Shown piece by piece: positions 21,715-35,604 of a DNA stretch of 36,648 nt. The position numbers were made by a program, and so were the translations under genes. Each line of letters opens with the position of its first letter. The stretch's first letter is position 1. The notes under the pieces are model-generated. The model saw nothing but the letters and a program-made list of their open reading frames with translations, was not told the origin of the DNA and made no database searches. Source of the stretch: Limisphaerales bacterium (GTDB lineage: Bacteria > Verrucomicrobiota > Verrucomicrobiia > Limisphaerales > UBA11358); the NCBI GenBank assembly GCA_025360325.1, contig JANYCI010000194.1, positions 1-36,648 on the forward strand, in the 5' to 3' direction.

Positions 21715-24700
21715 GTGAAAACGATTCTTAATATGTTTAGTTACTCGATCCGGCTCGGTTGCCGCCCGTTGGCTGACGGCCTGAAACTGGCAGCGGTGTT
21801 TGGCCTAGTCCTGCTGGCTGGCGCGGCCGCGGCGCAGACCAACGCGTCGGGAACTTTCCAGTTCACCACCGACACTTACAAGGTGAGTGAGTTTGAGCAG
21901 ACCTCCCCGCTGCAGCCGGGTATAAATCTCGCCCCGAGTTTGCTGGGCGCGCGGGTTACGGTGACGCGCACCAGCGGATCCAGCGGACGGGTGTTGGTTC
22001 CAATCCTAACCACTTCGTTCACAAATTATTTTCTGGTCACCAACGTGTTTGATATCAGCAACAATCTGGTCTTTTTGTCGCAGGTTAGGCCGTTGTTCCC
22101 TCCGGATGCCGGGCCGAATTTGACGAATAGCATCACGTTCGATGACTATCAGATGAGTGCTTCGAGTTTGATGACGAGTTACGGGGACCAGGCCACTTTG
22201 GTTCCCGGTTCGTCGGTCACCAACACCCCTTATTACCTCACCAACATAGTCAATACGACGACCAACATCAGCACGAACACTTTGGTTGTCTTCACCATTT
22301 CTGTGGTCTCAACGGGCGTTGGACTGTTGACACCGGTATTGGACGCGCTGGAGTCGACGAATCTGCTGCTGCCGCAACTCGGATCCACGGTGCAACAGTC
22401 CATCACCGTTGCCAAGTCCGTTCCCAACCAGTTTTCAGGTTCCTATTACACCAATTCGGTAATCAACCTCGAACGGTCAACGTTCCGTATATCGAAAGGG
22501 AAGAGCCCGGCCATCATCTATCTGCATCGAACAGGTGGAGCTGGAGATAAGGCCGTGACTGTGAGTTATGCCATCAACCAGTCATTGCCGCACCCGGTGA
22601 AGAGCGGCATGGACGGCAATCCCGCTCCCGGCAACACCTTTGCCCTTGAGGCGGGTTCGGACTATGCGGTGGCGGGAACCGACTTCCAGAATGTTTCCGG
22701 CACGGTGACTTGGGCGGCCAATGACAATAATGATAAGACGATCTCCATTACGTTGCTTAATCCCGGGACGCCGGCTTTTAACTTGGATCTTCAACTGCAA
22801 ATCTTCGTTCCTGTCGGCTCCACAGAACCGGTAATCATTGGCGGGATTGATCGAGCGACCCTCACAATTCTTGGAGACGAACAGCCAGCTGGTGCGGTGG
22901 ATCGCACTTGGAACAAGGACAATGGGGATGGTTTTGATTCCAACCCGCCTTACCTGAAATTTCCCGGCACCAAGGGCGGGGCGAGCGACAGCGCGAATGG
23001 CAACGGCGGCACAGTCAACGCGGTGGTGGAACAGGCAGATGGCAAGGCCATCATCGCGGGGAGTTTTAATTCCTACGATTCCAATCCGTATAACTACATC
23101 GTCCGGTTGTTGAGCAACGGCTATCAAGACCCCACGTTTTTAGTATCCCCCAACAGCGGGGCGAATGATGTCATCGCGGCGATGGCGTTGCAGACCGATG
23201 GCAAGATTGTCATTGGCGGCAACTTTACGTCCTTCAATGGCGAAAGCCGGCCACACATCGCCCGCTTGAACAGTGATGGCACGGTGGATGGCAGCTTCAA
23301 TCCCGGTCTCGGTGCGGATGGCACGGTGCAAGCGGTGGCTGTGAATCCGGAAGATGGAACCATTCTGATTGGTGGCAGCTTTACTAACTACGGCGGCGTG
23401 GCCTCTAGCTATGTGGCGCGTTTGAACCCGGACGGTTCACGCGATACCAATTTCAATGTAGGAAACACGGTGAATGGGGCAGTAAATGCCATTGCTATTA
23501 ACGGCGTGCAAACGATTAATTTGGACATTACTCCATCCGGCACCGAAACGGAAGATGTGCAGCGGCTCAACCTTGGCGTTTCTACTTCTGGTATTTTGCA
23601 GGTGGCCTTTGATATGTTTTTTGTGCCGGATAGAATGACGATTTACTATGGCGGCACTAACGATGTAAGAATTTATGATTCGGGTTCGGTTGCTGGCTAT
23701 ACTAATTTTGCGCTGCCGTTCGGCCCTACCAACGGATTTACCACCAATGTCATCACCATTGTCATGAATCAGGGTGGTGGACTGCTCGGAACTGTTTGGA
23801 TTTACAATGCTGTCATCAACACCTATGGCGACAAGACGGTCTATATCGGTGGTGAGTTCACGGCGGTGAACGGCCAGCCTTCCGGCGGCGTGGCAAAATT
23901 ACAGGCAAATGGAATTTTGGATTCGACCTTTAACCCCGGGATCGGCACTTACAATCCTGACACTGGATTTACTGATCCGGTTAAGGCTTTGGCCATTCAA
24001 AATGGCAAACTGCTGGTGGCCGGCGGGTTTTCCTACATGGAATTGGCGGACTATAATGGCATTGTGCGCTTGAATACGGATGGGACGATTGATCTGACCT
24101 TTAATCCCGGAGCCGATGCTCAAAACGGCACTTACAATCCGTTGAGCGGAAAAGTAGATACCATTTACGCGCTAACGCTACAAACGGACGGAAAAATTTT
24201 GATTGGCGGCAATTTCACCACTTACAACCAGACCCGGCGCGTGGGCATCGCGCGTTTGTTTGACAACGGCAGTCTGGACACGAGTTTCATGGATACGGCC
24301 TATAACCAGTTCGCCGGGCTGATCAACCACTATTACAAATCGGATGCGGTGAACACGAACGACTATCCGGCGGGCAACCATCGTAATGCCGTGCGGGCGA
24401 TCGCCGTGGAGCCATCATCGCCGAACAACGTGATTATCGGCGGCGACTTTCTGCGCGTGGGCGGCGGCTCGGTGGATCACGATGGCATCAATATGCCGGC
24501 ATATACGAATGTGGTTTTTCAGAACGCGCGCATGGACAGCCACCCACGGAGTAATGTGGCGAGGTTGATCGGTGGTTCGACGACCGGGCCGGGCAACATT
24601 TCGCTTTTGTATAACACTTACTCGGTGGATAAGACGGCGGGAACTTTATATGTGTCCATGGCGCGCACAAACGGCACGCTCGGAACCATTGCGGCGACGG

Positions 24701-27700
24701 TAAAGCCGCAATTTGCCGAACCCGGGCCGGGGATTGCAACGACCAACAATGTGACTGGGGGGGCAACACCCACTTGGCCGACACTCTATCAAATCAGTAC
24801 GAATGATTTCTGGCCCAAGGCTCCGGGGACTTATGGGCCGAACTTCAGCCCGCAGCCGCAGCCGCCGTTGGGGATTCATGGGACTGCTTTGGCGGACGTG
24901 TATTTCAGCATCATCAATAATACCAATATCACAGGGAATTTGAACGCGAACATCGCTTTGAACAGTCCAGACGGCAGTAGCTTTAAACTTGGCGGGGAAG
25001 TGGTTCCGCTCGGTGCCGCGTTGGGGCAGATTAACTTGTCGCCGCTGACGGTGATTGATAACAACTTCAAACCCGGCGTGCTGGGCTTCAGTTCACCCAC
25101 TTACACGGTCAACCAAAATGGCGGCACGGCGACCATCACCGTGGTTCGCACCAACGGCACGGATGGGATTGTCTCCGTGAATTATGACACCGCCAATGGC
25201 ACGGCGACGAATGGAATTAATTTCAACAACGTGAGCGGAACGTTGACGTTTAATCCGGGTGAATCCAGCCATACATTTACCATTCCGATCATCAGTGGTT
25301 CCACGGTGTCACCGGATAAGACGGTGAATTTGTTGCTATCTACGGTCACGGGCGGAGCCATGATTGGTCTGACGAACGCGGTGCTGACGATCATCAATAA
25401 TAACTTTACTCCGGGCCATGTCAGCTTTACGTCACTCACATTCACAACGAACGAACCGAACACCACGGGCGCAGCGGCGATCACGATCAACCGGCTCGGC
25501 GGTAGCAGCGGCACTTTAGCGGTGACGTTTGCCGCGACGAATGGCACGGCCACCAACGGTGTCCAGTTCACCGGCCTCACGAACTCGCTAACGTGGAACA
25601 ACGGGGATGTCTCTACCAAAACTGCTTTGGTGCCGCTCTTGCACGACGGCATTTCTACTACCCCCGACTTGAATGTGAACGTCCGGTTGTATAACCCGCT
25701 CGTGAACACCAAGCTGAACACGAACGCGCTAGGCTTAAATACGAACGCGCTGTTGACCATCGGCAACATAGACTTCCCCGGCACGGTGCAGTTCACCTCC
25801 GGCCGTTACTCGGTGAAAAAATATGCCGGCTACGCGCTGGTGCCGGTGGTGCGGGTCGGCGGCTCGGCGCAGGCGATTTCTGTGACCTATAATACGGCGG
25901 ACGGCACGGCAATAGCTCCGGCGGATTATACCGCGACCAACAATACGCTCACTTTCGCCAACGGTGAAGTCAGCAAATACATTCAGGTGCCGATCGTGGA
26001 CAACGCCGCCAGCATTGGCTTGAAGACGCTCACGGTGCAATTGACCGGCGCGGTGGGCAGCCCGGCCTTGGCTACCTTGAACATTATTGACACGGACGAG
26101 GTGGATGAAACGCCCGGTAGCGATGATCCGACTTACAGCCCTACCGCTGGCTTCAACAATGCCGTGTTTGCACTGGCGTTGCAGACGAACAATAACAAGC
26201 TCGTGGTCGGCGGTGATTTCACGCAGGCCGATGGCGTGCCGCGTCGCCGCATCGCGCGCTTGAACGCCAACGGCACACTCGATGCCTCCTTCTCGCTGCC
26301 ATCCTCGACGATGGGTGTGGACGCCAGTGTGCGTGCCGTCGTGGTGCAGTCTGATGGCCGCATCGTCATTGGCGGTCAGTTCACCAACTGCAATAGTTTC
26401 GTCAATCGCCATATCGCCCGTTTGAATCAAGACGGTGCGCTGGACAGCCTTTTCAACGTGGGTGCCGGTGCGGATAACACGGTCTTTGCGCTCGCCGAAA
26501 CGTTCGCGGGCGGCGCCCGGAAAATCATCGTTGGCGGCAGTTTTGCAACGCTCAACGGCACGACCTTTCACGGCATCGGGCGGTTGAACGACAACGGCGC
26601 GGCGGACACCAGCTTTAATCCGGGCGGACTCGGAGCGAATGCCGAAGTCTATGCGGTGGCGGTGCAGACCGATGGCAAAATAGTTATCGGCGGCAATTTC
26701 ACCAGTGTTAACGGCGTGACGGCAAATCACCTCGCCCGACTCAACGTGAATGGCACGGTGGACACTACCTTCACTGGCTCCGGTGCGAATGATTCAGTGC
26801 TGGCGCTCGCGGTTCAGCTTGATGGAAAAATTCTTCTCGGCGGCGCGTTCACGAATGTGAATGGCTCCGTCCAGAACCACCTCGCGCGCTTGAACAGCAA
26901 CGGCTCGACGGATCTCGGCTTCACGTCGGGCGTGGGTGCGGATGATCTGGTTACCACCATCGCGTTGCAGACGGATACGCGCATCGTGCTGGGCGGCCAG
27001 TTCACGCATTGCAGCGGCGTGACGCGCAGCCGGATCACGCGCTTGAATCCTGACGGCACCGTGGATCCGACCATTAACTTTGGCTCCGGTGCGGACGGTT
27101 TCGTATCGGCCATGGTCATCCAACAGGACAATATTACCGGCTACCCGACGAATGTGCCGGATGAAAAAATCATCATCGGCGGCGGCTTCGCGCATTACAA
27201 CGGCGAGGTGCGCCAGCGCGTGGCTCGGATTCAAGGCGGCTCCATCAGCGGCGTGGGTGCGTTTGAATTTTCCACCTCGGATTTTTATCAGGATGAAAGC
27301 GTCTTGAGCGCGGTCATCACGGTGATTCGCACCGGCGGCACGATGGGCACCAACGCCAACGGCTCCGGCAACATCAGCGTGCCGTTCACCACCAGTGATG
27401 GCAGTGCGATTGCGGGCGTCAATTATCAGACCGTCGTCACGAACATCATCTTCCCGATGGGCGAAGTGCAGCAGACTGTGAACATTCCGCTCATCCGCGA
27501 TTTTGTCATCACGAATGACTTGGATGTGAATCTGGCGCTGGATCCCATCTTGCCGGCGAGCTACGGCGACCAGCCCACCGCGAAGCTGCATATTGTCAAC
27601 GACGACGCAGCAGTTAATTTTTCCGCGCCGACCTATCAAGTGACGAAGAACGTTATCAACGGCGTGGCGACCATCAATGTTCTCCGCCTCGGCACCAGCT

Positions 27701-30003
27701 ACGGCACGGCCTCGGTGATTTTCAACACGACCACGAATGGCTCGGCCACGCCAGGGCTGGATTACACGCCGGTGACGAATTATCTTGTGACCTTCAATCC
27801 GGGCGTGACGAATGTGGCAGTGAACATTCCCATTACCAATAACGCCGTGCCGGAAGGATTCCGCACCGTGGAGATTCAACTGACCAATCCGGTCAACACG
27901 GTTTTGTATTCGCCCTCCAACGCGGTGCTGACGATTATTGACACGGTGTATTCGGCGGGACAGATCAGCTTCTCGGCGACGAACTATAATGTCACGCCGA
28001 GCGATGGTAGTGCGGTCTTGAAAGTGATACGCACTAATGGTTCATCTGGGACTATCTCCGTGGATTACCATACGATTGCGCAGACGGCGGTGCCGGGAAA
28101 TGACTATGTCGCCAGCAGCGGCCAGTTGACATTTATTGCTGGGGTGGTGAGCCAGAATATTAACGTGCCGCTGTTGTCGCAGACGTTGGTGCAGCCCCCC
28201 GTAACCTTCTCGGTCGTGCTGTCGAATTTGGTTGGTGGGGCGCAGATGATTGCTCCGACCAACGCCACGGTTAACATCATCAGTTCGATTGCTGGCATCA
28301 GTTTCGTTGCGGCCACGAATACCGCGCCGGAAAATTCAGGAGCGGTGAACGTCCTCGTGCAACGCCTGTTCAACACGAACAACGTGGTGTCCGTGAATTA
28401 CGCCACCGCGCCCGACACCGCGTTGGCCAATGTGAATTACCTCACCACCGCTGGCACGCTCTCCTTCACCAACGGCGAGAGCACCAAGGTCTTGAGCATC
28501 GCGCTCGTCAACCGCACCAATGTCACCGGCGATTTGAAATTCTCCGTCAAGCTCTCGTCCCCGGTCGGTGCCCAGTTGCTCGCGCAGAGCAACACGGTAG
28601 TTGTCATTCAGGATGCGGATGCGGGCATCAGCTTCACCAACTCCACCGTGCGCGTGCTGAAAAATTCCGGCAGCGCGACTATCACCGTCGTCTGCTCCAA
28701 CCCACGCGTGGAGCCGATCGTGACCGATACGAACAGCGTGCCGTTGTCGGTGCGTTATTACACGGCCGATGGCACGGCCTTGGCCGGGACGGACTATCAA
28801 GCGGTGAGCGGCACGTTGGTATTCACCAACGGCATTGCGACGAACACCTTCGACGTTCCGATTTTCAATAACGCGGCGGTGAGCGGCGACCATGCCTTCT
28901 CGGTCATCCTCACCAATGTCACCGCGCCCGGTCAGATCACGCCGTATGGCACGCAGACCGTGGTGATCAGCGAGAGTAACCCCGGCTTCCGATTCTCATC
29001 ACCGACTTACACGGTGTTTGAAAATGCGGTGCAGGCCGGCATCACCGTCTATCGCACCGGCTTCACGGACACCGTGGCCTCGGTCAATTTCACCGCCACC
29101 AACGGCACGGCGGTGAACGGCGCAAACTTCTTCGCCACGAACGGCACGCTGGTATTTACTAACGGCGAGACAGTGAAGTCGTTCAACGTTCCGATCATTG
29201 CCAACATCGCGGTGCAGCCGAATCTCACCGTGCTGCTGCAATTATTGAACCCCACCAACGGCACGCTCGTCGCGCCCAGTGCGGCTATCTTGAACATTCT
29301 GGAAAACGGCGGCAGCTACGTTGTCCCGGCGGGAGCCACGCTGGTGAGCGAATCCGGCCCGGTTAACGGTATCATCGAAAATGGTGAAACGGTTCAAGTG
29401 TTATTTGCCTTCCGCGATGCCGCCGGTTTGAACGTCACCAACCTCATCGCCTATTTACTCGCCACCAACGGCGTCACTGCTCCCAGCCCCGCCTCACAGG
29501 TTTATAGTAACTTGAGGGTTTATGGTCACTCCGTCTCACGGCCATTCACCTTCACCGCTTCCGGCACAAATGCGTTACCCATTGCCGCGACCTTCCGGTT
29601 GTATGACAACGGAAGTTTTATCGGCACGGCGCTATTCGGTTTCACCCTCGGTTCTTGGACAACCACGTTTAGCAACGCGGCGGCCATCATCATCAACGAC
29701 AACACCAACGCCTCGCCGTATCCGTCCGTCATCAATGTCAGCGGCGTCGGCGGCACGCTGATCAAGGCCACGGCCACGCTCAATGGTCTGTCCCATACCA
29801 CATCGGCCGACGTGGATGCTCTGGTCGTTTCACCTGCTGGTTCGAACACCTTGATCATGGCCCATGCTGGCGGCCAGAACACGGTCACGAACATCGTGCT
29901 GACCTTTGACGATGCCGCCAGCAATTCGCTGTCGCACTTCAACCTGTTGTTCACCGGCACGAATAAGCCGACGGCCTTTCTGCCTGTAAGGAATTTTCCT
30001 TGA
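21715..30003 (+). CDS. Giant exported Calx-beta / delta-60 repeat protein ending mid P-domain
   Basis: Encodes 2762 residues from a GTG with a good Shine-Dalgarno. The signal peptide ends near A40 (LAAVFGLVLLAGAAAAQ). The order is: degenerate Calx-beta-like units (45-400); a first delta-60 block (about 430-925; e.g. LQTDGKIVIGGNFTSFNG, IARLNSDGTVDGSFNPG) interrupted by a 100-residue beta insert (about 600-705); four Calx-beta units (about 960-1462; e.g. GTATNGINFNNVSGTLTF); a second delta-60 block of about seven repeats (1473-1839); six Calx-beta units (1850-2540); a linker; and the first half of a P-type beta-sandwich (about 2652-2762; SPYPSVINVSG, LTFDDAASNSL). It stops after LPVRNFP, without the domain's second half or the STNL tail. 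Calx-beta domains bind calcium and are common in adhesins. The delta-60 repeats probably build propellers. A surface adhesin or scaffold is likely. Confidence 0.9.
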   Translation: MKTILNMFSYSIRLGCRPLADGLKLAAVFGLVLLAGAAAAQTNASGTFQFTTDTYKVSEFEQTSPLQPGINLAPSLLGARVTVTRTSGSSGRVLVPILTTSFTNYFLVTNVFDISNNLVFLSQVRPLFPPDAGPNLTNSITFDDYQMSASSLMTSYGDQATLVPGSSVTNTPYYLTNIVNTTTNISTNTLVVFTISVVSTGVGLLTPVLDALESTNLLLPQLGSTVQQSITVAKSVPNQFSGSYYTNSVINLERSTFRISKGKSPAIIYLHRTGGAGDKAVTVSYAINQSLPHPVKSGMDGNPAPGNTFALEAGSDYAVAGTDFQNVSGTVTWAANDNNDKTISITLLNPGTPAFNLDLQLQIFVPVGSTEPVIIGGIDRATLTILGDEQPAGAVDRTWNKDNGDGFDSNPPYLKFPGTKGGASDSANGNGGTVNAVVEQADGKAIIAGSFNSYDSNPYNYIVRLLSNGYQDPTFLVSPNSGANDVIAAMALQTDGKIVIGGNFTSFNGESRPHIARLNSDGTVDGSFNPGLGADGTVQAVAVNPEDGTILIGGSFTNYGGVASSYVARLNPDGSRDTNFNVGNTVNGAVNAIAINGVQTINLDITPSGTETEDVQRLNLGVSTSGILQVAFDMFFVPDRMTIYYGGTNDVRIYDSGSVAGYTNFALPFGPTNGFTTNVITIVMNQGGGLLGTVWIYNAVINTYGDKTVYIGGEFTAVNGQPSGGVAKLQANGILDSTFNPGIGTYNPDTGFTDPVKALAIQNGKLLVAGGFSYMELADYNGIVRLNTDGTIDLTFNPGADAQNGTYNPLSGKVDTIYALTLQTDGKILIGGNFTTYNQTRRVGIARLFDNGSLDTSFMDTAYNQFAGLINHYYKSDAVNTNDYPAGNHRNAVRAIAVEPSSPNNVIIGGDFLRVGGGSVDHDGINMPAYTNVVFQNARMDSHPRSNVARLIGGSTTGPGNISLLYNTYSVDKTAGTLYVSMARTNGTLGTIAATVKPQFAEPGPGIATTNNVTGGATPTWPTLYQISTNDFWPKAPGTYGPNFSPQPQPPLGIHGTALADVYFSIINNTNITGNLNANIALNSPDGSSFKLGGEVVPLGAALGQINLSPLTVIDNNFKPGVLGFSSPTYTVNQNGGTATITVVRTNGTDGIVSVNYDTANGTATNGINFNNVSGTLTFNPGESSHTFTIPIISGSTVSPDKTVNLLLSTVTGGAMIGLTNAVLTIINNNFTPGHVSFTSLTFTTNEPNTTGAAAITINRLGGSSGTLAVTFAATNGTATNGVQFTGLTNSLTWNNGDVSTKTALVPLLHDGISTTPDLNVNVRLYNPLVNTKLNTNALGLNTNALLTIGNIDFPGTVQFTSGRYSVKKYAGYALVPVVRVGGSAQAISVTYNTADGTAIAPADYTATNNTLTFANGEVSKYIQVPIVDNAASIGLKTLTVQLTGAVGSPALATLNIIDTDEVDETPGSDDPTYSPTAGFNNAVFALALQTNNNKLVVGGDFTQADGVPRRRIARLNANGTLDASFSLPSSTMGVDASVRAVVVQSDGRIVIGGQFTNCNSFVNRHIARLNQDGALDSLFNVGAGADNTVFALAETFAGGARKIIVGGSFATLNGTTFHGIGRLNDNGAADTSFNPGGLGANAEVYAVAVQTDGKIVIGGNFTSVNGVTANHLARLNVNGTVDTTFTGSGANDSVLALAVQLDGKILLGGAFTNVNGSVQNHLARLNSNGSTDLGFTSGVGADDLVTTIALQTDTRIVLGGQFTHCSGVTRSRITRLNPDGTVDPTINFGSGADGFVSAMVIQQDNITGYPTNVPDEKIIIGGGFAHYNGEVRQRVARIQGGSISGVGAFEFSTSDFYQDESVLSAVITVIRTGGTMGTNANGSGNISVPFTTSDGSAIAGVNYQTVVTNIIFPMGEVQQTVNIPLIRDFVITNDLDVNLALDPILPASYGDQPTAKLHIVNDDAAVNFSAPTYQVTKNVINGVATINVLRLGTSYGTASVIFNTTTNGSATPGLDYTPVTNYLVTFNPGVTNVAVNIPITNNAVPEGFRTVEIQLTNPVNTVLYSPSNAVLTIIDTVYSAGQISFSATNYNVTPSDGSAVLKVIRTNGSSGTISVDYHTIAQTAVPGNDYVASSGQLTFIAGVVSQNINVPLLSQTLVQPPVTFSVVLSNLVGGAQMIAPTNATVNIISSIAGISFVAATNTAPENSGAVNVLVQRLFNTNNVVSVNYATAPDTALANVNYLTTAGTLSFTNGESTKVLSIALVNRTNVTGDLKFSVKLSSPVGAQLLAQSNTVVVIQDADAGISFTNSTVRVLKNSGSATITVVCSNPRVEPIVTDTNSVPLSVRYYTADGTALAGTDYQAVSGTLVFTNGIATNTFDVPIFNNAAVSGDHAFSVILTNVTAPGQITPYGTQTVVISESNPGFRFSSPTYTVFENAVQAGITVYRTGFTDTVASVNFTATNGTAVNGANFFATNGTLVFTNGETVKSFNVPIIANIAVQPNLTVLLQLLNPTNGTLVAPSAAILNILENGGSYVVPAGATLVSESGPVNGIIENGETVQVLFAFRDAAGLNVTNLIAYLLATNGVTAPSPASQVYSNLRVYGHSVSRPFTFTASGTNALPIAATFRLYDNGSFIGTALFGFTLGSWTTTFSNAAAIIINDNTNASPYPSVINVSGVGGTLIKATATLNGLSHTTSADVDALVVSPAGSNTLIMAHAGGQNTVTNIVLTFDDAASNSLSHFNLLFTGTNKPTAFLPVRNFP

Positions 30004-30036
30004 GGCATGACGGCAACTTGAAGACGAAGAATTTTT

Positions 30037-32202
30037 ATGCACAACGTTTTTGTTAAGACAATTTTCGGGCTGCTGGCCGTGGCTGCGCTAACCATTGGTT
30101 TGCCGCCGGTGAAGGCTGCGTCGCCCATGCCAATTTTGGTAATAGTGCCGGGGTTGAGTGGGGAATCAGCCATCACTGCGCTCGGTGGTAATATTGATGC
30201 CGTTGCCGCACATTACGATCAGACCGCAGTGCAATTGCGGGCCTTATTCCGAAGTGATTCCTCCTTGCGTGTGGATGGCGCGGGGTATCTCTATTATGTT
30301 TGCGTTGGCATCCCGCAAAATACTCCAGCCTACACAAACATCGTCTCCCCCTTGCAGCCGCTGACGAACACATTTTTCCTGCACAGCAAGCCGGGATCAA
30401 CCAAGACTATCTATTTAGATTTTAATGGTGAAACCATTTCTGGAAGAGCTTGGAACAATAATAACACTCCTACTAGCGGTAATGATATCATAGCGCCTCC
30501 TTGGGATATCAACGGCAATCCGGGTGTGTTTAGCGCCAATGAACAGTCTATTATCCAGCAGGTGTGGTATCTAGTAGCTGAAGATTATGCCCCATTTGAC
30601 GTGGATGTGACCACTGAATACCCAGGTGAGGCAGCCATCACCCGCAGTGACGTGACGGATAATGTTTTTGGCACTCGAGCGTTGATTAGTCCGATTAACT
30701 CCCTCATTGATACCAATGCATACGGTGGGTTGGCCTATGTTGGAGTTTATAATTTGGTTGGCGATTTTTTTAAGCCCGCTTTGATTTTCCCAGAAAATTT
30801 GGGCAATAATCCCAAAAATATTGCCGAGGCTGTAAGCCACGAAGTTGGGCATAATTTAGGCCTCCACCATCAGGGCACCAGCTCGCTGGGTTATTATGCT
30901 GGGCAGGGCAACTGGGCACCCATCATGGGGGTTGGCTATTACAAACCAATCGTCCAATGGGCCAAGGGCGAGTATCAAGATGCCAACAACCACGAGGACG
31001 CACTGGCGTTGATCACGACGAAAGGCTTGGACTATCGCGCTCAAGACTTTGGTAATTCGATCGCTACTGCCAGCCTGATGCCTGGCATCAAATCCATCAC
31101 CAACGGGGTCATTTCCCGCACCGGTGAAGCCGATTATTTCTATTTTCAAACCGGCAGCGGTTCCGCGCAAGTAACCATTACTAATTGGTCAGGGAGCAGC
31201 GATTTGCACGAACGCGTCACTATCTACGATTTCAATGGCGTCCCGGTGGTCAGCTCCGAATCCGTGGATGACGCCAGTGTCGGCACACGCGGGGTGACCA
31301 TTCAATTCCCCGTCACGGCTGGAAAATATTATGTTTCTATTGTCGGAACGAACAATGGCAACGCCTTTACCACCGGTTATTCTACTTACGCCAGCCTTGG
31401 TCAATACACCCTTGCTATCACCAACCCGCTCGGAAGCGCTACCACCTTTACCGCGCCGTCTGGACCTTGGGGCACTAATCTGGCAGTGATGAACGGCAGC
31501 AATCCCAACGGCCTGTGGCTGTTGTTTGTTCAGGATGATGCGGTGCTATATACGGGCATCATTAACAATGGCTGGTATGTCACACTTACCACTGCCGATC
31601 TCGTCGGTCAGGCGTCAGACAATGCCCTCTATGCCTCGAAGACCAACATCACCATGCCTTACGCCACCAATTGCAGCTTCACGGTGTGCGTGACCAACTA
31701 TGGCCCGTCCACTTCCAGTAACGTGTTCGTCACCGACACGCTGCCAACGGATGGACTGGTGCTGGTCTCCTCCAATAGCACCGCTGGCACCGTCTCGATC
31801 ATCGGCTCGGTATTGACGTGGAGCGTAGGCACTTTGCAGACGAACGCCGGAGCCAGCCTCACGCTCGTGTTGCACAGTATCGTTAGTGGTGCGTTCACCA
31901 ACACCGCCACGGTCAGTTCCACCACCGCTGACCCGAATCCTGACGATGACACCGTGGCTACCGCCATTACTGTGACCGCGCCGCCGTTGCCGCCGTTGCT
32001 CACGAACTTTTCGCTGTCGGGCGTGACCAACGATTTTCAACTGACGGTCAACGGCGATCCAAACTTCCTGACCATCGTCCAAGCGTCCACCAATTTGGTG
32101 AACTGGGTGAATCTGTTCACTAGCACGCCACCGTTCATCTACACGAACTTCGGCACCACCAACTACCCGGTGCGCTTCTATCGCGCTGTGGTTGGGCCTT
32201 GA
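30037..32202 (+). CDS. Secreted zinc metallopeptidase joined to half P-domain, DUF11 and STNL tail
   Basis: Encodes about 721 residues. The signal peptide is MHNVFVKTIFGLLAVAALTIGLPPVKA. A zincin catalytic domain follows with HEVGHNLGLHH (H268, E269, H272, H278) and a Met-turn candidate in APIMGVGYY, as in reprolysin-like metzincins. A PPC-like beta-sandwich (about 350-465) ends LGQYTLAITNP. From about 470 there is only the second half of a P-domain (APSGPWGTNLAVMNGSNPNG, then GIINNGWYVTLTTAD). A DUF11 domain (about 527-648; TNYGPSTSSNVFVTDTLP) and a tail FLTIVQASTNLVNWVNL...FYRAV close the protein. The catalytic region uses visibly more A/T than the tail. The N-terminal part and the tail look as if they came from different genes. 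It probably acts outside the cell on proteins; substrates are unknown. Confidence 0.88.
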   Translation: MHNVFVKTIFGLLAVAALTIGLPPVKAASPMPILVIVPGLSGESAITALGGNIDAVAAHYDQTAVQLRALFRSDSSLRVDGAGYLYYVCVGIPQNTPAYTNIVSPLQPLTNTFFLHSKPGSTKTIYLDFNGETISGRAWNNNNTPTSGNDIIAPPWDINGNPGVFSANEQSIIQQVWYLVAEDYAPFDVDVTTEYPGEAAITRSDVTDNVFGTRALISPINSLIDTNAYGGLAYVGVYNLVGDFFKPALIFPENLGNNPKNIAEAVSHEVGHNLGLHHQGTSSLGYYAGQGNWAPIMGVGYYKPIVQWAKGEYQDANNHEDALALITTKGLDYRAQDFGNSIATASLMPGIKSITNGVISRTGEADYFYFQTGSGSAQVTITNWSGSSDLHERVTIYDFNGVPVVSSESVDDASVGTRGVTIQFPVTAGKYYVSIVGTNNGNAFTTGYSTYASLGQYTLAITNPLGSATTFTAPSGPWGTNLAVMNGSNPNGLWLLFVQDDAVLYTGIINNGWYVTLTTADLVGQASDNALYASKTNITMPYATNCSFTVCVTNYGPSTSSNVFVTDTLPTDGLVLVSSNSTAGTVSIIGSVLTWSVGTLQTNAGASLTLVLHSIVSGAFTNTATVSSTTADPNPDDDTVATAITVTAPPLPPLLTNFSLSGVTNDFQLTVNGDPNFLTIVQASTNLVNWVNLFTSTPPFIYTNFGTTNYPVRFYRAVVGP

Positions 32203-32204
32203 GG
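32201..32204 (+). promoter_or_regulatory. Shine-Dalgarno of coaE overlapping the peptidase stop
   Basis: GAGG lies three bases before ATG 32208 (rather close) inside GAGGAAAATG and overlaps the TGA of the peptidase gene. It favours ATG 32208 over the TTG at 32199 and suggests translational coupling. Confidence 0.45.
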
Positions 32205-32207
32205 AAA

Positions 32208-32795
32208 ATGAAATTATTCGGTTTGACCGGCGGCGTGGGGATGGGCAAATCCACTGCCGCCGGTTTTCTTTTACAAGCCGGCGTGCGCGTCGTGGATACG
32301 GATGACCTAGCTCACGCGCTAGTCCAACTCGGCCAGCCCGCGCTCGCTGAAATAAAAAAAGAATTTGGTGAAAAAATCCTCGCCGCCGATGGTTCGCTGA
32401 ACCGGGCCGCGCTTGCGGAAAACGTTTTTGCCGACGAAGCCGCGCGCAAAAAACTGGAAGCCATTTTACATCCACGCATCCGCGAATGTTGGCAAACGCA
32501 GGTCGAAAATTGGCGGAAAGAAAATTGCGCGCTGGCTGTCGTCGTGATTCCGCTGCTGTTTGAAACGACGGCGGAAAATCAGTTCGACAAAATCATCTGC
32601 ATCGCCTGCTCGCCGTCATCGCAAATGGAACGGCTCAAGGCGCGTGGGTGGACGCCGGAGCAGATCACCCAACGTATCGCTGCCCAGATGCCGGTGGAAC
32701 AAAAAATTGCCCGCGCCCATTTCGTCATTTGGACGGAAGGTATGCCGGAGAATTCCCGCCGCCAGATCGCCCAAATCACTCGTGGTGTGAGTTAG
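32208..32795 (+). CDS. coaE: Dephospho-CoA kinase
   Basis: Encodes 195 residues, the usual CoaE length. The P-loop GLTGGVGMGKST sits at the N-terminus (residues 5-16), followed by VVDTDDLAH (30-33, the CoA-site acidic motif), LNRAALAENVFAD, LEAILHPRI and VVIPLLFETTAENQFD, all CoaE hallmarks. It phosphorylates the 3'-hydroxyl of dephospho-CoA in the last step of coenzyme A synthesis, in the cytoplasm. It follows the exported peptidase by five bases, so a housekeeping enzyme appears to ride on the end of the secreted-protein operon. A strong intrinsic terminator lies about 260 bases downstream on the same strand. Confidence 0.95.
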   Translation: MKLFGLTGGVGMGKSTAAGFLLQAGVRVVDTDDLAHALVQLGQPALAEIKKEFGEKILAADGSLNRAALAENVFADEAARKKLEAILHPRIRECWQTQVENWRKENCALAVVVIPLLFETTAENQFDKIICIACSPSSQMERLKARGWTPEQITQRIAAQMPVEQKIARAHFVIWTEGMPENSRRQIAQITRGVS

Positions 32796-33150: not shown

Positions 33151-35604
33151 TCAAGGCCTCGTCACACTCACGCGTAGAAACTTCGCGACAGAATTATTCA
33201 TCGCCGCCGTGTGGCGCACAGTCACGTTTTCATTGGGCGAACCGGTGCGGGAAATTTCTGCTGCGTTCGCTGTGAGGGCGATGTTCGTTCCCGCGTAAGT
33301 CGCGATGTCCGTCCACGTCAGCAAATTCGAGGAGGATTGGATGTGATGCGTCACACCGGATTCTGCGGGACGTCGCACAAACGTGATTTGGAAAAATTTA
33401 TTTCCCAAGTTCGTGACGACGGCGGACTGCACGGTGGCGTTGGTCTTCCAGTAATTTAACAGGCTGATGAGCGCGAGCGGCGTATTCGTCGGTGCGGGTT
33501 GGCCGGATTGGGTGGTGAGATTGACGCCGTGGCAACTGGTGCAGGTGCGAATTTCTCCCGGCGCAAACGTGAGCCAGTAACGCTCGCGCACCACGCCGAT
33601 GTTGTTCGTGTCGGTCAACTGCCACGCGAGCGCGCGGCGTGCGGGCACGAGTGCCGCCGTGGAGCCGTCCGCGCCGACGCGCACGCTGGCAAGCGCGGCG
33701 GACGGCGGATTGTCTGCGGCGGGATCGTGCAAATGTTGGGCAATGACGCGGCGGCCGGCGCGCGGTGAATTGGTGTTGCCGTAATTCAAGCTGCGCAACT
33801 GGTCGGCCTGAAATAGTTGCAGCCACGCGACGTCGTAAATTTTCCCCGCCGCGCCAAGATTTTGGTGAGCGGTGCCGGCGACGCGGAGATTGAACGGTTG
33901 TTGATGATCCGCCGCGTCGCGTGTCGTCACATCGCGGCTGACAATGAGCGCAAGCTGATGCGTGCGAAGATAGTTTTGAAAATTTCCAACGCTGACATTG
34001 GCGGCGGCGAACGCAGCGAGTTCCGGCGCAGCCATCGCCCTCGCGGACGCCGCCGGGCGCGGACGCGCGACGACTTCCACGGGATCGAACTCCCACAAAA
34101 AATTCGTCTGTGTGACGAGGATGTCTGGACTCCAATACGCGGCGCGATTCGTCAGCCCTGCCGTGAGCGGCGTGCCGGGAACGTAAAGGCCATTGGAGAG
34201 CGTGAGAAATTTCAGCCGGAAATCATAGGGCGTCGTCGGAAAATCAGCGGTGCCGAGATTGGGTTCGGCGAGTTTGTAGCTGGCGTGCGCGGCGAGAAAA
34301 AATCCGTCCGCAGTCATCAGCGGATTCCGATAAAGCCCGGTGTGATCAGGAGTGATGCTGTTCGAGTTCGCGGCGGGCGTGCGCGTGGAAAGTGGCGTGA
34401 GAAAATTCACCTTCATGTAAAACGCGTTCACGTTCGTCGCGCCGGTGAGCGACACGATTTGTCCGCCGCTGTGCGAGCCGAATTCCGGCGCGTCAATGCC
34501 ATAAAAAAGTCCCGGCGTGCGCGGGTCTTCGCGCACCATCAGAAAATTATTCACGGTGTTCGTGTTGTAATTGCCGCCGAAATAATAAAGATCCTGCACG
34601 TTCGGATCATTTGTGAACGCGCCGTTCGCGTAGCTGCCGCCGAGTTCGTGACGGCCAACGTGATTCAAAGTTTCCTCCTCGGTGCCATCTTGATTGATCA
34701 TCCACGGAAAAAACTGGTTGAAGTTGTGGCCGGTCAGACCGGTGCCTGCGAGTAAGTCTGTCCGCACCGAGCGTGGTTCGGGAAAAACTTCTGTCTGATT
34801 GGTTGTCGCGACGGAGTTGGAGGACTCATCGCTCCAGTTGAACGCGCCGTAAGTGATGGAGCCGTGAACCCAATCGGTGTCCGCCTGCTGATCGCGTTGC
34901 AAATGATCCCAGCGCGCAAAAATAATCCGACCCGCGTTGTCCACCAACGGCGAGAACGCGCCGCTCGGCGTGTGATTGATCAAAAATAAATCGCCATTCG
35001 TCGGCTGCAAACTCCACAGGCCGGTGACGGTCGGCGCTTCTTCGTATTCATCGAGCTGCGGATAAAGCTGCGCCTCGCCGTTGCGCGGACGGTCGCTGGT
35101 GAAAATAATTCGGTCATCGGAACCGTAGATCGGGGAGACGTTGTTAAAATTCGTCGGTTGGTTAGGAACTTTCGTGATCACCGGCACGGCGTTGGAATCG
35201 AGGAAATTTGTAATTTCAAAAATCTGCCAGACGCCGGTGTCTGAATAGTCATATTGAAAATGCGGCGCACCGACGACCATGCTGAACACCGCCTTATTGC
35301 CGCTCCAATGCACGCACGGCTGTCTCACCGCGATGGCATTGGTGGTTTGCGCGCCCCACTGGCCGAAGCCCGCCGCACGCGTGAGATTTTTCAGCGCGCC
35401 GTTTGGATAGCGGATATAGAGATCGCCGCCGCGTCCGCACGAGTCGAGCGACGGCTGATGGTTCCCGAACGTCGAACCGATGGTGGTGAAATCCGCCGGC
35501 ACTGGAACTTGCGTGACGAAGAGGATGGCGTTCGTTGGGCCACCGACCAACTTGGCTGCGGTTGCGAGCAGCACGATCAAAGAAAATATTCTGGTAGTAT
35601 TCAT
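33151..35604 (-). CDS. HzsA-like/PD40 beta-propeller protein with one c-type heme motif
   Basis: Encodes 817 residues. A signal peptide-like start (MNTTRIFSLIVLLATAAKLVGG) sends it to the periplasm. The first 350 residues carry repeated propeller-like segments (SPIYGSDDRIIFTSDRPRNGEAQLY; SPLVDNAGRIIFARWDHLQRDQQ; GRHELGG). Near residue 685 is one CxxCH heme-attachment motif in GEIRTCTSCHGVN. This layout matches the family that includes the alpha subunit of hydrazine synthase, whose members are common in Planctomycetes and Verrucomicrobia outside anammox and have no known reaction there. The C-terminal 80 residues contain an STNL-like module (HHIQSSSNLLTWTDI...KFLRVSVTRP) shared with the secreted proteins upstream. 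It is transcribed alone, converging on coaE. A redox or structural role is possible; true hydrazine synthesis is unlikely without the beta and gamma subunits. Confidence 0.7.
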   Translation of the reverse strand: MNTTRIFSLIVLLATAAKLVGGPTNAILFVTQVPVPADFTTIGSTFGNHQPSLDSCGRGGDLYIRYPNGALKNLTRAAGFGQWGAQTTNAIAVRQPCVHWSGNKAVFSMVVGAPHFQYDYSDTGVWQIFEITNFLDSNAVPVITKVPNQPTNFNNVSPIYGSDDRIIFTSDRPRNGEAQLYPQLDEYEEAPTVTGLWSLQPTNGDLFLINHTPSGAFSPLVDNAGRIIFARWDHLQRDQQADTDWVHGSITYGAFNWSDESSNSVATTNQTEVFPEPRSVRTDLLAGTGLTGHNFNQFFPWMINQDGTEEETLNHVGRHELGGSYANGAFTNDPNVQDLYYFGGNYNTNTVNNFLMVREDPRTPGLFYGIDAPEFGSHSGGQIVSLTGATNVNAFYMKVNFLTPLSTRTPAANSNSITPDHTGLYRNPLMTADGFFLAAHASYKLAEPNLGTADFPTTPYDFRLKFLTLSNGLYVPGTPLTAGLTNRAAYWSPDILVTQTNFLWEFDPVEVVARPRPAASARAMAAPELAAFAAANVSVGNFQNYLRTHQLALIVSRDVTTRDAADHQQPFNLRVAGTAHQNLGAAGKIYDVAWLQLFQADQLRSLNYGNTNSPRAGRRVIAQHLHDPAADNPPSAALASVRVGADGSTAALVPARRALAWQLTDTNNIGVVRERYWLTFAPGEIRTCTSCHGVNLTTQSGQPAPTNTPLALISLLNYWKTNATVQSAVVTNLGNKFFQITFVRRPAESGVTHHIQSSSNLLTWTDIATYAGTNIALTANAAEISRTGSPNENVTVRHTAAMNNSVAKFLRVSVTRP

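Follow-up and report, generated by a model that had tools for sequence, protein, structure and literature searches.

A P-domain apparently divided between a giant secreted protein and an exchanged peptidase gene in Limisphaerales

Gene fission with retained split domains turns one ancestral chain into two adjacent genes. The locus described here is similar in that one ancestral chain appears to have become two adjacent genes, but differs in that the break is occupied by a peptidase gene, which seems to have been exchanged while the halves stayed in place. The divided domain is a proprotein convertase P-domain (PF01483). In the second gene of related families, P-domains follow the peptidase in one chain, as a peptidase-attached P-domain does, whereas here the domain is spread over two polypeptides and only its last part is carried by the peptidase.

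In polymorphic toxin systems, a constant body is combined with an effector module that is replaced by recombination (PMC3482391). The likeness is that a constant body stays while a module is exchanged, but in our case the variable part is an extracellular peptidase, with a constant leader ahead of it and a constant C-terminus behind it; a variable C-terminal toxin with a neighbouring immunity gene was not seen at the locus, where the next gene is coaE. The planctosome of freshwater Planctomycetes is a hypothetical complex in which peptidases are held on a large P-domain-rich surface protein (PMC6461901). Both the holding of peptidases on a large protein and the involvement of P-domains would be shared with our locus, but the planctosome uses cohesin-dockerin contacts and whole P-domains, whereas we propose contact through a split P-domain; a Pfam search of the two window proteins detected neither cohesin nor dockerin. 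A split domain acting as a joint was not found in the consulted portions of the polymorphic toxin (PMC3482391) and planctosome (PMC6461901) accounts, and no description of a split domain together with an exchangeable peptidase was found in the open-access literature searched.

Here, the window is the whole stretch of 36,648 nucleotides that was analysed. It belongs to a MAG of 4.03 Mb in 372 contigs, and the relatives used for comparison are MAGs of Limisphaerales / Verrucomicrobia subdivision 3. The features of the locus are collected in Table 1.

Table 1. Coordinates of the split P-domain locus in the window
Feature	Position	Strand	Remarks
Giant secreted protein gene	21715..30003	+	2762 aa; delta-60 repeat beta-propellers, nine Calx-beta domains, C-terminal half P-domain
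P1, first part of split P-domain	29713..30000	+	End ...VRNFP; placed by alignment to unbroken P-domains; P1 of relatives ~8-63 of PF01483
Stop codon at conserved split point and 33-base intergenic leader	30001..30036	+	Leader resembles that of relatives' S53 genes
Secreted zincin with half P-domain, DUF11 and tail	30037..32202	+	721 aa
Signal peptide of zincin gene	30037..30117	+	MHNVFVKTIFGLLAVAAL, similar to MSKTFFKMSLAVLAAVGL-type leaders of S53 genes at same locus
Putative replacement cassette: propeptide-like region and reprolysin-like zincin	30118..31053	+	61% identity to G121
PPC-like beta domain, apparently travelling with zincin	31054..31425	+	Common to G121 and zincins elsewhere in order
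P2, second part of split P-domain	31447..31602	+	PF01483 48-81 of 86, E 0.086
DUF11 domain	31645..31962	+	Pfam 71.1 bits; pLDDT ~86-96
C-terminal tail (STNLVNWV...FYRAV)	32000..32199	+	Same tail on unbroken giant of G044; pLDDT mostly 68-91
coaE, conserved neighbour	32199..32795	+	Synteny anchor

From 4733 to 32795, the window carries on one strand, with tiny gaps, a PilM-like gene, two unknown genes, a secretin, a 5'-3' exonuclease, three large unknown genes, the giant, the zincin and coaE. An exonuclease-like gene lies directly before coaE in G003 and G056, so the block of large genes before coaE looks like an accessory insert. Beyond it, on the minus strand (33151-35604), an 817 aa protein scores above the cut-off for the hydrazine synthase alpha middle domain (PF18582) and is probably a distant relative.

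The giant protein matched Calx-beta (E 9.6e-142) and DUF5122 (E 7.7e-136) in Pfam, as well as delta_60_rpt, and its C-terminus reads SPYPSVINVSG...KPTAFLPVRNFP, followed by TGA. In the ORF at 30037-32202, the order is signal peptide, zincin, PPC-like stretch, APSGPWGTNLAVMNGSNPNG...NGWYVTLTT, DUF11 and tail. The zinc motif HExxHxxGxxH is present as HEVGHNLGLHH at ~30838-30870, and the Pfam entry Reprolysin_3 was matched with 26.9 bits (cut-off 22.4), a combination of motif and Pfam match that fits a reprolysin-like zincin (M12).

Unbroken P-domains of relatives matched PF01483 (P_proprotein) above its cut-off in all eight tested, at 27-40 bits versus a cut-off of 21. Taken alone, the halves of relatives stayed below the cut-off in every case; P1 matched in 3 of 10 at ~8-63 and P2 in 9 of 10 at 48-85 of 86, with E as low as 0.0026. 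The Pfam search with the window P1 gave no PF01483 match and the window P2 reached only the E value in Table 1, so identification in the window depends on alignment to relatives.

A first-pass annotation, made from the letters of the window, had proposed a P-type domain split over two neighbouring genes, and this is confirmed, coordinates included. Its expectation that the halves would cover complementary ranges of one profile is borne out among the relatives; in the window itself, P1 is unmatched. It was right that the catalytic region is more A/T-rich than both flanks (GC3 0.51-0.54; giant 0.70, DUF11 plus tail 0.77). The PPC domain that it had placed after the zincin was not detected in the window proteins by Pfam, and the stretch can be called PPC-like only.

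The position of the split agrees to the residue in 28 genomes; 27 belong to the window's genus (the window included) and one, G121, to another family. These are the genomes in which both halves are readable, and three more (G010, G046 and G051) are cut by contig ends. All 28 have the stop of the giant directly after ...FP (once FH), and the gene order is the giant with one half P-domain, the peptidase gene with the other half, and coaE. Such a shared split residue argues that the split is not due to chance.

When the peptidase protein was used for searching, many genomes of the same genus matched its C-terminal 260 residues only, in ORFs of ~820-880 aa; the rest of the genus mostly lacked the split locus at the level searched. 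In 320 genomes of the order, searched with a P2 query that was an approximate mixture close to the window and G048 rather than an exact translation, P2 occurred in ORFs of 720-885 aa only in the window's genus and G121. The P2 matches in other families lay in long frames, mostly unbroken, except for four short ones (G169, G157, G236 and G244). As far as sequence can tell, then, one P-domain is divided by a peptidase gene, and both halves are kept in two secreted proteins across most of the genus.

The peptidase at the split site is of two kinds. In the genus, all 26 split genomes besides the window carry an S53 (sedolisin-like) peptidase, recognized by a Pro-kuma_activ match of 103 bits in the G048 protein and by a GGTS motif, of the catalytic GTSxA type, in the second-half ORFs, and the window and G121 carry a zincin. 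In the concatenated tree, the window is sister to the S53-bearing G048 (100/99), and the AU test rejects a grouping of the window (G000) with G121 on the flanks (p 4e-4); on these two results, the zincin is ruled out as the original insert. Before the split, the window and G048 share high identity; over the catalytic part, identity drops to 0.1-0.3, and from P2 it climbs once more. With G121, the window shares high identity over the zincin and less on either side, and the base composition of the cassette equals that of the flanks in G121 and is unlike it in the window. The zincin gene keeps an S53-type leader, which argues that the zincin is a later replacement; judged from these comparisons, it has replaced an S53 peptidase between the conserved leader and the half domain. 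The zincin version in G121 lies on a 3.9 kb contig (L243, G121:C466), and its presence in a genome of another family may reflect transfer or a binning error.

The S53 cassettes have apparently been exchanged among themselves as well, their trees being in strong conflict with those of the flanks. The S53 tree rejects the flank sisters G012/G058, G053/G052, G006/G013 and G015/G061, and the flank tree rejects the S53 sisters for three S53 pairs (AU, p 6.5e-4 or lower for both). Conflict between the flank tree and the S53 (or zincin) tree was found at p 6.5e-4 or lower in 8/8 AU tests, with pairs that were picked after both trees had been seen. A single clade of the S53 domains of the locus was not rejected (AU p 0.105). 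P2 was closer to the host's sister than to the cassette's sister in each of the six swap cases.

We give a probability of roughly 60% to the following account as a whole, that is, the insertion history together with the in-trans reassembly of a split P-domain as a dock for exchangeable peptidases. Trees and synteny point to an ancestral giant secreted protein that would have ended in a P-domain, DUF11 and the tail, with coaE downstream. In an ancestor of most of the genus, the P-domain would have been interrupted between its FP and AP residues by a gene for a secreted peptidase, so that the giant now closes with the first half and the peptidase with the second half, DUF11 and the tail. The peptidase part would later have been exchanged more than once with the leader and half domain held constant, a zincin taking the place of the S53 peptidase in the window genome. 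After secretion, the halves would reassemble into one P-domain, which would dock the peptidase on the giant and return the tail to it. With a constant dock, different peptidases could be plugged in by recombination.

The support for the history is strong, and the docking of the halves, taken alone, we infer at about even odds. At a little under even odds, we suggest that the split P-domain is a non-covalent plug and socket between giant scaffold and peptidase, kept across most of the genus, through which S53 could be swapped for S53 or for zincin without loss of attachment.

It is also conceivable that the same split history took place and the halves never meet, P1 being a C-terminal cap and P2 a linker to DUF11. 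We consider this unlikely, although the shortness of P2 (~50 residues) would suit it. A P1 made useless by the split should decay, and its identity is not below that of the neighbouring domain (mean pairwise identity after the split 0.577 for P1, 0.610 for P2 and 0.539 for the neighbouring domain). The consensus is kept at 41/44 conserved residues in P1 and 22/28 in P2, and 96 and 98% of the respective core positions are still hydrophobic; that both halves keep the hydrophobic core and signature residues of the unbroken domain speaks against a mere cap and linker, as does the fact that P2 stays with its own P1 through the cassette swaps. Distances in P1 correlate with those in P2 (rho 0.48 versus 0.06 with S53), and the partial Mantel test between P1 and P2 given both neighbours gave r 0.22, a value reached in 27 of 5000 permutations; this co-variation is modest, which suits the idea of halves that never meet.

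The models bear on the same question. AlphaFold predicted the unbroken L167 protein confidently throughout (mean pLDDT 95.7; unbroken domain ~93-98), and the cut position falls in a loop between strand 223-226 and strands 259-267, 274-276 and 280-287. In the model of the window zincin protein, P2 is mostly below pLDDT 50 and the adjacent DUF11, predicted from the same rows, is at ~86-96; the disorder of P2 could stem from a thin alignment or from an uninformative zincin part, the catalytic half being likewise unfolded (pLDDT under 50) in this model of the whole protein. The lack of a predicted fold for P2 alone sits poorly with a free-standing linker. Foldseek with the three-domain model returned unspecific beta-sandwich matches only (e.g., integrins and complement), and a profile of the unbroken P-domain had no match among PDB sequences. 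Taken together, retention, co-variation and models fit two halves that depend on one another.

Insertion of a peptidase gene into the giant predicts that the two halves have their origin in the domain of the giant. Other families of the order have the P-domain in one piece. The first-pass annotation had proposed a search for homologues with an unbroken P-domain-DUF11 C-terminus, and giants of this kind, with the tail, exist: the unbroken gene is followed directly by coaE in G035, G036 and L178, and G044, the one MAG from which the unbroken state is known in the same genus, has its unbroken P-domain in a 3246 aa frame with coaE next. The arrangement in two genes, whose occurrence everywhere among relatives had been named as an argument against insertion, holds inside the split clade and fails outside it.

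Several other families have two complete genes, the giant and then a peptidase gene with its own P-domains, with coaE next in G032. The second-gene peptidase may be S53, subtilase (S8), M36 or M6; in one case, a sortilin-like module is found instead. In L162, L163, L168, L176, L179 and L181, the gene after the giant starts with a subtilase, M36 fungalysin, M6 or sortilin-like propeller.

The occurrence of a peptidase gene after the giant in these families, with coaE following in G032, would also suit a two-gene locus that was rearranged, with deletions of the giant's end and of the middle of the peptidase gene leaving complementary halves and no insertion at all. The AU test with the split P2 copies constrained to the last gene-2 copies did not reject this grouping (p 0.134), which leaves room for two deletions. 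In the P2+DUF11 tree, however, the 28 split copies are united in a single clade (100/98) with G044 as sister (99/96), nested in the giant-gene copies (98/94) and apart from the gene-2 copies, and exact complementarity would be a coincidence. The P1 region also groups with the giant copies in the P1 tree; G044 has no firm placement in the P1 tree or the concatenated tree. We hold the two deletions to be quite improbable, and the insertion of a peptidase gene into the ancestral giant gene to be well supported by the sequence comparisons. Insertion had been part of the first-pass annotation, and that part stands; its choice of the zincin as the insert does not, given S53 in the 26 others. A misassembled junction, which it had also raised, or a chimeric contig, as a MAG in 372 contigs might invite, is refuted and has next to no probability, since the same split residue with coaE recurs in 27 further independent assemblies, one of which, G121, also has the zincin version.

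In two further genomes of the same genus, G042 (L213:1-1482) and G016 (L206:2-1490), the gene adjacent to coaE has a different body. The G042 tail is near-identical to that of the unbroken G044 and the G016 tail is similar; perhaps the tail stays fixed at the 3' end and the bodies are exchanged.

The locus offers a replicated case in which a single domain is shared out between two genes and retained by each. It can be compared with a relative whose domain is apparently unbroken, and makes the survival of split domains by reassembly directly testable. If our account is true, these bacteria would have a simple way of fitting a giant secreted protein with another enzyme, and a two-part protein linker of natural origin could be made from the split halves.
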